DNA of 64,000 nt from Herpetosiphon giganteus (GCF_016907925.1 NZ_JAFBCZ010000012.1:62001-126000), one strand, 5' to 3'; counted from the stretch's first letter, positions 40,649 to 45,193 are shown. A program made the numbers and translations. Notes: a model not told the origin generated them from the sequence alone.

Positions 40649-40668
40649 GCTCTACAACCAAGTTTTGT

Positions 40669-40781
40669 AACCGCGAAGAACGCGAAGAGCACGAATGTTA
40701 GGTTTAGTGGTTCGCTGACATTTCTCCAATTATCAGAGAACCACTAAATTAGCCTTAGCGTCCTTCGCGTTCTTCGCGGTT
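40669..40781. repeat. 113-bp palindromic (MITE-like) element downstream of the CHAT gene
   Basis: The outer arms AACCGCGAAGAACGCGAAG (40669-40687) and its exact complement (40763-40781) are 19 bp. Inside, TTTAGTGGTTC and GAACCACTAAA form a second arm pair, so most of the element folds on itself. It lies between the convergent pckA and CHAT-protein genes and could serve both as terminator. The arms belong to the 9-nt-period repeat family. Confidence 0.7.
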
Positions 40782-40797
40782 AAATTACCCCTTATCC

Positions 40798-43700
40798 TTA
40801 TGGCTTTTCTGCCTTTTGACTTTTGCCTTCTGAATTGGCTTCCAGCTCCTCGAGCACCCGTAAGATCAACAATGCAATCTCTAGGCTTTTTATCTCAGCA
40901 CATAATGAATTCCAATCGCGCTCGCCTGCCCAGATGCGCTGAATGCTTGCTGGTACTTTGCCCCAATCGCCTTGCTGCATCTTCGGGAATTCTTGCTCGA
41001 CCGCAGCTCGCATTTCTTGATTGCCTTGGGTTGCTGTGACAATTGCTGCGATCAATTGCCCAAATTGTTGATCGATATGCCAGCGATTGGCGGCATGGGC
41101 AGTAAATGCTGTTTGTGCTTGCTGACGATACTCTGCTGCTGTCACTGCTTGGCCTGCTAGATTGGCTAAGTCGGCAAGGATGCTAAAAGATAACCATAAT
41201 GAAGCACTATTGGGATCAAGAGTTTGCTTGATTGCCAAGGCTTGTTCAGCATAGGCTTGAGCTTCGACTAAGCGGCTTGACGGCCATGCTCCAGCTTGGA
41301 TTTGATTAGCAATCAGATCAGCGAGATTATTGAGTGTTCCCGCCTGATAAAATGCTGGCAGATCAGGGGTTTGTAATACCCGTTGATACCAGCCCTCAGC
41401 CTCGCTTGGCTTGCCTGCTGATTCAGTCACGATTGCCAAATTATTACAGGTTTGCGCTACCCCAATGCTATCGCGCAAACCTTCGTGGATAGCCAGACTC
41501 TGGCGATAATGTTGCTCGGCGTTCGGCCAATCTTGTTGCTCTTCTGCAACTCTGCCCAGTTGATGATAGATCGTGGCTTCAGCACTTGGCGCGTTCAACT
41601 GCTGATAGATCTCTAGGGCTGCATCGTATTTTTGGGTGGCCTCAGCATACTGGCGCTGTTGCAACGCTAATGTCCCAAGTAACTCTAAATCTACTCCTTG
41701 ACTATGCAGATCATCAAGTGTTTTATCGATTTCTAGTCCTTGCTCATAACAACGCTTAGCCTCAGTAAATTGGCCTTGATCGCGGTGGCAATTGGCAAGA
41801 TCAGTCAATACTGCTGATTTCTGATGAAAATACATCTTGGCATCTGGTTGTTGGATGAGCAACTGTTCAATCATAGTTAATGCATGCTGCTGCACCTGCT
41901 GGGCTTGAGCCGGTTGGCCTAAGCGCAGTAAACAACGCCCAATTCGCGCAAGGGTTACACAATGCTCATAGGAGCCACGGCCACACGGCTGATCATCTGG
42001 CTGTTGCTCGATCCGCGCTAAAAGTTGCCCAAAGCGTTGGAGCGCTGCATCATAACGACCTTGAGCAAATTCAGCCTCACCAAGCCCAGTTTCATGTAAA
42101 AACTGGGCTTCGGAAAGCTGTTCTTTGATAACCATATGCTGGGCAAGTTGTTGATTGAGCAAATTGCGCTCGCGCTGCATACCAAAATTGTTATAAAACT
42201 TATTTAGGTTATCAGCCATATCTACTGCGGCATCAATCTCCTTTAAGCTTAATAACCCTTGGAGTGCCTTTTGCAGGTTGGGCAGTTCATAGCGCATCAA
42301 GGCTCGAACTGCTTGCGGGGTTTGGCGATCTTGCTCATAACAATATCTTGACAACTGGTAATAACGCACGGCAAAGCGTTGCTCTAGCTCAGTGCTAGTG
42401 GGGTGCTGCTGGCGCAAATAGGGCGTGAGAGTTGGATGAAAGTGCAAAAATGGCACGGTAATATTTTCAATTGCCACAGGCACAATTAATGCCGCATGCT
42501 CTAGGGCGGCGCGGAGTTGCTGCCATTGCTCGGCAGGAATCTCCGTAATAACAAGCAAATTTTCTTCTAACGTACCGCCTTCAAAGGGCGTGAGCATTGC
42601 TAGCCACTTACGCTGTTCCGAGCTGAGGCGTTGTAGCGAGTAGGTTAGCGAGGCTTCGAGCGAGCTATGGCGCGGGGTCGGGCTGTTTTCATCGGTGAAT
42701 TGGGCCAAGGCGCTGCTATAGTCGCTCAGCAGTTGCTCGATGCTCAAGTTGGGGTCGCGCAAGGCGCGTAGGGTCAAGCCCATCGCCAAGGGGTGATGAT
42801 CGAGCCGTGCCAATAGGCTGCTTAGTTGCAATTTTGGCGCACGCCGCCGATCAATCGCCAAATCATCGAGCAAGGCCGTGGCAAAGCTGTAGGCTGAGGG
42901 TGCATCCAAGCCGCGCATGGCAATCAGGCTGGTGTATTGGCCTTGCTGCAAGCGGCTATCACGCAAATCATAATCGCGGCAGGTCAAAATGATGCCTGCG
43001 CCTGCTTGCCGCAAGCCCAGCACACAATCCCACAAGGCTTGGCGTTCTTGGGCTTCCAACACATTTAGCTCAACATTACCCGCGTTGGGCAAAATGCTCT
43101 CCAAATTATCAGCGATAATTAGCAATGGCTTGTTGCGTAGGTGCGGCTTGAAGCGCTTTAAGGCTGCTTGTAAATCGTGCGAATCGGTTTCGGGCAACTC
43201 ATAATGGCGAGCAATCGCGCTGAGCAGGGCAATTTGGTTGCCGCCATGTTCAAACGAGAGCAGCAACGCGCCTTGATAGAGCTTGGTTTGGGTGAGCCAA
43301 GCGGCAGCTTCGCTGGCAAGGCGGGTTTTGCCAATGCCGCCAAAGCCATACAACAAGGCGATTTTGCCTTTCAGCAAAGCCCGTTCAAGCTGCAAAAGCT
43401 CTTTGGCGCGGCCAACAAACGGGCGTTGATGCGGGTTCTCAACAAAGCCCGAAAGCTTGGTCGGCTTGGGGCGCGGCGGCTTGCCGGTTGGGGTGAGATT
43501 GATCGCTGCTTGCTGATAAAAATGCGGCATCCACCAATCGGCTAAGCTAATTGGATCGGCGGTTTGCTCGGCATTGCGGGCGAGGTGCAGGCGCACGGGC
43601 TGACTTTGCAAGGCTTGGCGGGCGCGCTCCAAGGCTACAGGTACCGAATCACCTTTGGCGATCAAGCCATAGAATTCGCCAAAAAAGATCGCTGTCGTGA

Positions 43701-44724
43701 TGGGCAGCACGCTAGCGCTCATGGCCACCACCGCTGGCACGCCTGCCGTCAACAACTGGGTTGCTACGCTGCTCAACGCCTGTTGCTTTTGATACTCGGC
43801 ATCGTCGCTTGCACTCGTATCCATCACACTGGTTTGGCAGGCATCCAACAGCACCAAACGCACCCCTGCGCCATTCAACAACTCGGCAAAGCGCCGAGCC
43901 TCAACCGTATCAACCTGATAATCGGCTTTTTCAAACGATAAAACCCCTTGCGGCACGTTGGCTGATTTATAGAGCGTGCTGGTTGGCTGCATTTTGGGAA
44001 AGCCGCCATGACCATCGAAATGCAGAATATGTACGGGCTTGCTAGCATCTTGCAGGCGACGCGCCAGTTGATCATAGGTTGGCGGGCGCAAAAACTCCAA
44101 CTCGATCATGCCAGGCTTGAGTTTTTCAGTTTGTTCTAATTGCTGCAATTGCTCAAAAATCGTCTGGGCTGATGTTCGTGGATCAAGAAACCCTTGATCA
44201 TCAGGCCGTGCCACAACCACCAGCACTCGCAAAGGCATGGCAAATTCATCGACAATTGATTCTTCTTCTGCGATCGTAGGAATGGTTCGATAGATCGCAA
44301 CTGGGCTGCGCCGCCGTTGGTTCAAAAAGCCAAAATCATCGTGTAGCAATTCCCATGGCACGCTCAACACGGCGGGAATCACGCTTAAAATTTGCAAGGT
44401 TGGCACACCAGCATCAACCTGCATCCACTCAGCATAAATTTTGGCAGCGTTGGCACTTGATTCAAAAATTGCGGCAAAGAGCGCCTTGCCAACTGTGGCT
44501 AAATCGGCTTCAACTCGTGCGGCGCGTTCGCGAAACTCCAGAAATGGCCATTTCAGGTATTCTTCAAAATACCATTGAAAATCGGCGCGTTGCTGTTTGG
44601 TTGGTAGCTCAGGCAACGTGCCGTTGGCAGTCAGTTGATTGAAGCGCAACGTCCATTGGGCTAAATCGGGCGAATCAGGGGCGGCAGCGGTACATTCGAG
44701 GGTGAGGATGTTTGGTTGGCTCAT
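40798..44724 (-). CDS. CHAT protease-like domain fused to NB-ARC-type ATPase and TPR repeats
   Basis: A 1308-residue cytoplasmic protein. After a ~165-residue N-terminal region comes a CHAT (caspase-like) domain: ILHFDGHGGF with His239 and LVLLDACQTS with Cys296 form the expected catalytic dyad. Next is an NB-ARC/STAND ATPase with Walker A LLYGFGGIGKTRLA (Lys466), Walker B LLIIADN (Asp539) and sensor ILTCRDYDLR, a winged-helix-like stretch, then TPR repeats from about 840 to 1210 (YEQGLEIDK, YDAALEIYQQL, YRQSLAIHEGL). STAND proteins are switches that assemble on ligand binding; the TPR would sense and the CHAT part would cleave. A role in regulated death or phage defence is inferred. The last ~10 residues come from a dispersed repeat. 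Confidence 0.9.
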   Translation of the reverse strand: MSQPNILTLECTAAAPDSPDLAQWTLRFNQLTANGTLPELPTKQQRADFQWYFEEYLKWPFLEFRERAARVEADLATVGKALFAAIFESSANAAKIYAEWMQVDAGVPTLQILSVIPAVLSVPWELLHDDFGFLNQRRRSPVAIYRTIPTIAEEESIVDEFAMPLRVLVVVARPDDQGFLDPRTSAQTIFEQLQQLEQTEKLKPGMIELEFLRPPTYDQLARRLQDASKPVHILHFDGHGGFPKMQPTSTLYKSANVPQGVLSFEKADYQVDTVEARRFAELLNGAGVRLVLLDACQTSVMDTSASDDAEYQKQQALSSVATQLLTAGVPAVVAMSASVLPITTAIFFGEFYGLIAKGDSVPVALERARQALQSQPVRLHLARNAEQTADPISLADWWMPHFYQQAAINLTPTGKPPRPKPTKLSGFVENPHQRPFVGRAKELLQLERALLKGKIALLYGFGGIGKTRLASEAAAWLTQTKLYQGALLLSFEHGGNQIALLSAIARHYELPETDSHDLQAALKRFKPHLRNKPLLIIADNLESILPNAGNVELNVLEAQERQALWDCVLGLRQAGAGIILTCRDYDLRDSRLQQGQYTSLIAMRGLDAPSAYSFATALLDDLAIDRRRAPKLQLSSLLARLDHHPLAMGLTLRALRDPNLSIEQLLSDYSSALAQFTDENSPTPRHSSLEASLTYSLQRLSSEQRKWLAMLTPFEGGTLEENLLVITEIPAEQWQQLRAALEHAALIVPVAIENITVPFLHFHPTLTPYLRQQHPTSTELEQRFAVRYYQLSRYCYEQDRQTPQAVRALMRYELPNLQKALQGLLSLKEIDAAVDMADNLNKFYNNFGMQRERNLLNQQLAQHMVIKEQLSEAQFLHETGLGEAEFAQGRYDAALQRFGQLLARIEQQPDDQPCGRGSYEHCVTLARIGRCLLRLGQPAQAQQVQQHALTMIEQLLIQQPDAKMYFHQKSAVLTDLANCHRDQGQFTEAKRCYEQGLEIDKTLDDLHSQGVDLELLGTLALQQRQYAEATQKYDAALEIYQQLNAPSAEATIYHQLGRVAEEQQDWPNAEQHYRQSLAIHEGLRDSIGVAQTCNNLAIVTESAGKPSEAEGWYQRVLQTPDLPAFYQAGTLNNLADLIANQIQAGAWPSSRLVEAQAYAEQALAIKQTLDPNSASLWLSFSILADLANLAGQAVTAAEYRQQAQTAFTAHAANRWHIDQQFGQLIAAIVTATQGNQEMRAAVEQEFPKMQQGDWGKVPASIQRIWAGERDWNSLCAEIKSLEIALLILRVLEELEANSEGKSQKAEKP

Positions 44725-44828: not shown

Positions 44829-44947
44829 AGTTTAACGCAGAGGCGCAGAGAAACGATGTTTTGGTAGTGAGCACAACAGCATTTTGTTAAATGCAACGTG
44901 CTGTTCTGCTGCTCAACAAACAATGCTTTGCGCCTCTGCGTTAAACT
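44829..44947. repeat. 119-bp inverted-repeat (MITE-like) element upstream of the CHAT gene
   Basis: Perfect 19-bp arms AGTTTAACGCAGAGGCGCA (44829-44847) and complement (44929-44947) flank a core that itself contains GAGCA-CAACAGCA and a bulged complement, so the whole element can fold into one hairpin. One arm recurs alone at 26879-26899. No transposase is nearby and no target-site duplication is obvious. Confidence 0.75.
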
Positions 44948-45193
44948 TTCGCAAATCTTCGGGTAGCTTCGCGTTCTTCGCGGTTACGAAATACGTTTTG
45001 ATCCACGAAGGACACGAAGAGCACGAAAAATAAGGCTCTAGGCTCTCGGCTATCGGAACAAGTGTTGGTATTTGCAAGCAATCTCCGAAAGCCCAAAGCC
45101 AATAGCCCTTCGGGTAGCTTCGCGTTCTTCGCGGTTAAAAATAACATTCCTTGCCCCTTGCCCCTGAATCCTGACCCCTCATTCAGACACTCC

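Follow-up and report, generated by a model that had tools for sequence, protein, structure and literature searches.

Among the described systems that come closest to the gene considered here, the two-gene EACC1-caspase "System 4" (Kaur et al. 2020, PMC7159879) has an N-terminal caspase-superfamily peptidase followed by a STAND NTPase and repeats, with a small gene encoding a TM helix directly 5'; it occurs in multicellular hosts, being reported mainly from actinobacteria, and EACC1-caspase-STAND systems have been predicted to act against invaders in multicellular bacteria (PMC7159879). Avs/AVAST and bNACHT proteins are built from an N-terminal effector, a central STAND ATPase and a C-terminal repeat sensor, and according to work cited in PMC10907252 TPR-sensor STAND proteins bind phage proteins. 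CHAT proteases are found in Craspase (Csx29/TPR-CHAT with Cas7-11, type III-E CRISPR) and in SAVED-CHAT, and the domains listed for Borvo and type III-E CRISPR defence systems include CHAT (PMC10952713). Proteolytic activation of nucleases has been shown for Hachiman and Avs, and caspase-nuclease (canu) loci are also protective (PMC12799240). Finally, the Apaf-1 apoptosome, the ZAR1 and Roq1 resistosomes and the fungal HET NLRs combine an NB-ARC ATPase and a repeat sensor with a death-effector logic.

The gene lies in a stretch of 64,000 nucleotides, here called the window (Table 1), from Herpetosiphon giganteus, a filamentous soil bacterium. It shares with System 4 a multicellular host and the order of peptidase, STAND NTPase and repeats, and seven of its relatives also have a small TM-helix gene directly 5'; however, the small protein falls below the Pfam EACC1 cut-off (E 0.06-0.09), the window copy has no such gene, and the published cases are mainly actinobacterial. 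The overall plan is that of Avs and bNACHT proteins, and Avs4 is among the fold matches, but the effector is a CHAT protease, and PADLOC returns for the window protein a generic TPR match only, with no Avs or other defence-system model. Fold matches are also obtained to Craspase and to SAVED-CHAT; unlike these, the window protein has the order CHAT-STAND-TPR and an ATPase switch of its own, and no Cas7-11, Csx30 or SAVED was identified among its domains or the five NCBIfam-assigned flanking genes. With respect to the apoptosome, resistosomes and HET NLRs, the differences are that the protease is fused rather than CARD-recruited, that the repeats are TPR and not WD40 or LRR, and that the protein is bacterial. 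A protein of this kind is therefore one that is already known; what is undescribed is the small partner of the relatives, its absence in the clade of the window copy, and a C-terminal helical module referred to below as GERD. On balance, the window protein is probably a STAND receptor with a caspase effector, of the sort known from bacterial conflict systems, with a predicted activity and a predicted role in defence.

Domain architecture and conserved residues

The original prediction had proposed a fusion of CHAT domain, STAND ATPase and TPR array at this position, and Pfam and profile matches bear this out, adding that the gene is on the minus strand (no ORF spans the same interval on the plus strand). 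A GAGGAG stands a few bases 5' of the ATG.

Table 1 Features of the CHAT-STAND-TPR gene and its flanks (positions in the window; residues are those of the encoded protein)
Feature	Position	Strand	Remarks
CHAT-STAND(NB-ARC-like)-TPR gene	40798..44724	-	complete ORF, 1308 aa, ATG start
CHAT caspase-like domain, residues 104-378	43591..44415	-	Pfam E 4e-20; PDB fold match 8tl0
His239 codon (FDGHGG)	44008..44010	-	invariant, 17 relatives
Cys296 codon (LLDACQTS)	43837..43839	-	invariant, 17 relatives
STAND/NB-ARC-like ATPase, residues ~430-720	42565..43437	-	AAA_22; profile matches Roq1, Apaf-1, ZAR1, PH0952
Walker A GFGGIGKT, residues 460-467	43324..43347	-	invariant core
Walker B LLIIADN, residues 534-540	43105..43125	-	nearly invariant
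TPR solenoid, residues ~850-1200, variable putative sensor	41125..42174	-	Pfam TPRs, AlphaFold pLDDT, dN
C-terminal GERD helical module, residues 1216-1291	40852..41079	-	absent from Pfam
Imperfect palindromic intergenic repeat (TAACCGCGAAGAACGC...GCGTTCTTCGCGGTTA), between pckA and gene	40668..40782	.	
Intergenic repeats upstream of gene	44829..45148	.	inverted repeat 44829-44850/44926-44947; direct copies 44957-44997/45108-45148, related to 40763-40784

In the window protein CHAT (PF12770, clan CD caspase-like) scores 72.8 bits against a curated cut-off of 24, AAA_22 exceeds its Pfam cut-off at residues 454-557, and TPR_12 matches with E 2e-29, the best TPR stretches being at ~970-1120; the Pfam NB-ARC model itself matches relatives only. 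A PDB profile search with the N-terminal alignment found NB-ARC/AP-ATPases over residues 432-713, namely PH0952 (a STAND TPR sensor), wheat G10, Roq1, Apaf-1 and ZAR1, with NBD-to-winged-helix spans at 450-708 for Roq1, at 433-542 and 575-713 for G10 and at 436-542 for Apaf-1. Both the architecture and the matches to Apaf-1, Roq1 and ZAR1 lend support to the apoptosome- or NLR-like logic that had been suggested.

The catalytic dyad and the Walker motifs, which had been described as intact, are so: H239 and C296 are invariant in 17 of 17 aligned sequences at identities down to 26%, and in the same alignment G463, G465, K466 and T467 of Walker A are invariant and D539 and N540 of Walker B nearly so. 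The AlphaFold model of the CHAT-ATPase part (residues 1-760) was built on a shallow alignment of 5 sequences and has a mean pLDDT of 56.8; in this low-confidence model H239 follows strand 232-236 and C296 follows strand 290-294, and this placement after strands 3 and 4, taken with the invariance of both residues, is that of CHAT peptidases. Using the same low-confidence model, Foldseek gave as top PDB match the activated SAVED-CHAT filament 8tl0 (E 2e-7) and as second the wheat NB-ARC G10 resistosome 9h2l, followed by Avs4, ZAR1 and Csx29. The top match and the strand order point towards the expected CHAT fold, as far as a model of such low confidence can show it. The TPR half is modelled well in the repeats (pLDDT >90 across much of 990-1160) and resembles the solenoids of LGN/Pins and kinesin light chain.

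The GERD module that follows the solenoid comprises about 74 aa, with the consensus ...I.RIWAGERDW..LC.E......LLI.RVL, and no Pfam family matched it. A profile of the module, run against 158 genomes of the class, finds it in 41. It sits at the ends of large STAND/TPR-like proteins, in two small stand-alone proteins of this genome (G000:C26:76851-77483 and G000:C10:26118-26738) and, in three Chloroflexus-like genomes, in what was recognised by reading the sequence rather than by family search as a small TPR-like protein whose gene adjoins a CoxE-like vWA gene. Such a distribution fits what an adaptor would show, making GERD a candidate adaptor outside Pfam, and we infer that it may bind homotypically. 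A related Herpetosiphon copy (G003b, L051:15057-19589) carries ~200 extra C-terminal residues with what appear by eye to be tandem GERD-like modules.

A proposed switch and the turnover of its gene

By analogy with STAND and CHAT systems, the receptor reading would work as follows. At rest, the CHAT protease at the N-terminus would be kept inactive by the NB-ARC-like ATPase, with ADP bound, together with the solenoid of TPRs. The variable TPR surface would then bind a ligand, most probably a protein of the invader or some change that the invader brings about, whereupon nucleotide exchange would allow the ATPase to oligomerise. CHAT domains clustered in this way would be activated and would cleave a protein of the host, or a partner, whose gene lies elsewhere; the affected cell of the filament is predicted to stop growing or to die, with defence as the predicted role. 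Since protease effector, ATPase switch and sensor are present in one chain, the apoptosome/NLR principle becomes testable in a single purified bacterial protein.

Support for this reading comes from patchy presence (0-4 copies per Herpetosiphon genome), absence from the pckA site of the two nearest relatives and the fast divergence of the TPR part. The six members of the genus that were compared (G000-G005, G000 being this genome) have 1, 1, 1, 4, 0 and 1 copies respectively, and H. aurantiacus DSM 785 carries an ortholog, the sole match in one single-protein scan of genome contigs. The window gene is convergent (tail-to-tail) with pckA and outside any operon, and the window copy itself is surrounded by housekeeping genes: the five flanking genes encode, by NCBIfam, PEP carboxykinase, MreB, P5C dehydrogenase, a DHODB-electron-transfer-like protein and an HD-domain protein, and no defence gene was recognised among the immediate neighbours. 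The orthologs of G001, G003 (copy G003a) and G005 share the tail-to-tail arrangement and form one clade with the window copy (100%), so that four species keep the gene convergent with pckA. In G002 and G004, which are the nearest relatives as judged from neighbouring genes (dS 0.05-0.25), pckA is followed by the gene that comes next in the backbone of the window, nothing but intergenic repeats separating the two, in a site that is otherwise syntenic, and because of this direct adjacency the CHAT-STAND-TPR gene was most likely lost there. Ortholog G003a has a premature stop (an amber codon at position 100), and G003 also has a tandem pair of copies; taken together, loss, amber codon and variable copy number mean that the gene is dispensable and turns over.

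Palindromic repeats flank the window gene, and where the gene is missing in G002 and G004 the site is taken up by similar ones. An exact 20-mer of the palindromic repeat occurs 3-10 times per genome of the genus, 4 of the 10 in this genome being around the window gene. It is possible that such intergenic repeats served as recombination sites for loss of the gene.

Beyond the orthologs, the settings are different. In G003 the tandem copies have as neighbours a NERD-helicase gene (with a DRT-type PADLOC match) and a NACHT-FGE gene; three IMG/VR contigs hold relatives at 27-28% identity, two of them beside serine recombinase genes (in one case also with HsdM) and the third directly following prophage tail and muramidase genes; and relatives on cyanobacterial plasmids lie near integrases. 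The distant relatives and the G003 tandem copies are therefore in cargo and defence-type settings, and the homologues as a whole are not confined to housekeeping operons, an outcome that would have spoken against the original prediction. In the IMG/VR contig L122:88-8853, GTA-like tail and muramidase genes are followed by the CHAT-STAND gene, likely as prophage cargo. A phage origin of the family was considered and rejected, INPHARED giving one weak CHAT-only match and the IMG/VR relatives being cargo of such low identity.

Divergence within the gene is uneven. Across three ortholog pairs dN is 0.17-0.27 in the TPR part versus 0.04-0.06 in CHAT-ATPase, i.e. 3-5 times higher, a difference that none of 2000 codon shuffles attained. 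For the window copy against its orthologs, dN/dS is 0.08-0.17 for CHAT and ATPase and 0.24-0.27 for TPR, all purifying, and positive selection was rejected, dN/dS being <0.5 in every computable domain and pair. In two of the three pairs the TPR part significantly exceeds the rest of the gene in dS as well; the absolute dS of the gene is not unusual, because neighbouring genes span dS 0.16-0.88. Exchange of TPR segments is possible but is not claimed here, given this range among the neighbours and a test on the TPR tree that leaves the ortholog clade, and with it simple descent, acceptable (p-AU 0.32).

The four-species pckA neighbourhood fits a resident regulatory gene as well as it does a defence gene, and to that extent counts against the defence reading. 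The protein might accordingly have a signalling role in the development, predation or stress response of a filamentous bacterium that moves by gliding, as a protease switch acting on a host regulator rather than in defence. Purifying selection in all domains is in keeping with this, as are the 8-14 CHAT matches per Herpetosiphon genome, which suggest general use, and the occurrence of GERD in the small TPR protein beside the CoxE-like vWA gene. Patchy presence, loss in the two nearest relatives, one premature stop and multiple copies in another genome do not sit well with it, however, and neither do the fast TPR part and the mobile-element context of distant relatives, so that we regard it as unlikely. 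A switch for allorecognition or kin discrimination resembling the fungal HET NLRs, in which a polymorphic TPR part would sense non-self products once cells had met or exchanged DNA, and would set off death, has been raised for STAND conflict systems of multicellular bacteria (PMC10907252), and the TPR is indeed the part that is polymorphic between species; but the divergence data are between-species only and dN/dS is <1, and this seems to us very unlikely.

A candidate partner gene in the relatives

The receptor reading would have the window copy work without a neighbouring small gene, whereas in related copies the protein encoded upstream would probably be a membrane anchor, a sensor or the first substrate. 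It had been stated that no partner gene lies beside the window gene and suggested that the neighbours of homologues be surveyed. The first statement holds for the window copy but not for the family: the survey found that in seven relatives (G002, G003c, G045, G007 at two loci, G043 and G042) the CHAT-STAND-TPR gene is immediately preceded, on its 5' side, by a small gene of about 96-152 aa. As read from the sequence, the small protein has the layout strand, helix, one TM-like helix, strand, C-terminal helix, and the TM-like helix contains small residues, e.g. IVKTGIEIAGGVAGILTFL.

A sequence search made independently of CHAT neighbourhood gave three strong matches, in G042 (upstream of the CHAT-STAND gene) and in contig C48 of this genome and C2 of G001 (both directly downstream of a TPR-CHAT gene). 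All three adjoin CHAT genes, of which a genome has so few matches that the chance of each adjacency is estimated at < ~1%; weaker matches in G010, G023 and G040 are not beside CHAT genes. Because the small gene is 5' in seven relatives and 3' of a TPR-CHAT gene in two genomes, the CHAT-STAND-TPR family appears to have a candidate partner or regulator gene, and the conserved small gene offers a concrete candidate partner or substrate. It is absent beside the window copy and those of G001, G003a, G003b, G003d and G005, and a search of the flanks of five loci, that of the window copy included, turned up no remnant; nor does an EACC1 gene stand immediately 5' of the caspase gene at the window locus. 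The clade of the window copy, which has no small gene, spans four species. That the window copy is decaying or inactive, its switch having lost the neighbouring partner and ceased to work, is scarcely probable: the missing gene and the amber codon of G003a would agree with it, but the window copy encodes the complete protein with its motifs intact, purifying selection acts throughout the gene, and the partner-free clade has the breadth just given.

The small genes are not assigned to EACC1 here, since in addition to the sub-threshold Pfam match hhalign gave 1.5% probability for the small family against genuine Chloroflexota EACC1; the two do have the same layout and the same helix hydropathy, and we retain the description "EACC1-like in layout". 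A wider proposal can be put forward only tentatively, and with considerable doubt: Chloroflexia may possess a two-gene, membrane-linked caspase-STAND switch with a small partner family of its own (not EACC1) and a shared GERD adaptor, through whose homotypic contacts CHAT-STAND-TPR proteins would be linked to HTH-STAND-TPR and CoxE-vWA-associated ones; the clade of the window copy would then have become a one-gene, partner-free version.

Two further loci may be mentioned. In another Chloroflexota genome (L165:3-1818) a genuine EACC1 gene, over the Pfam cut-off, is directly followed by a gene matching nSTAND_NTPase5, whose caspase-like start was judged by eye only; EACC1 matches are few in Chloroflexota. 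In this genome, C48 (L118:2549-10805) holds a defence-like cluster in which TPR-CHAT and the EACC1-like small gene are followed by the gene of a STAND-TPR protein at whose end lies a phosphorylase-superfamily (PNP) effector, with a PADLOC match, the whole being preceded by two unrecognised, possibly membrane-associated genes.
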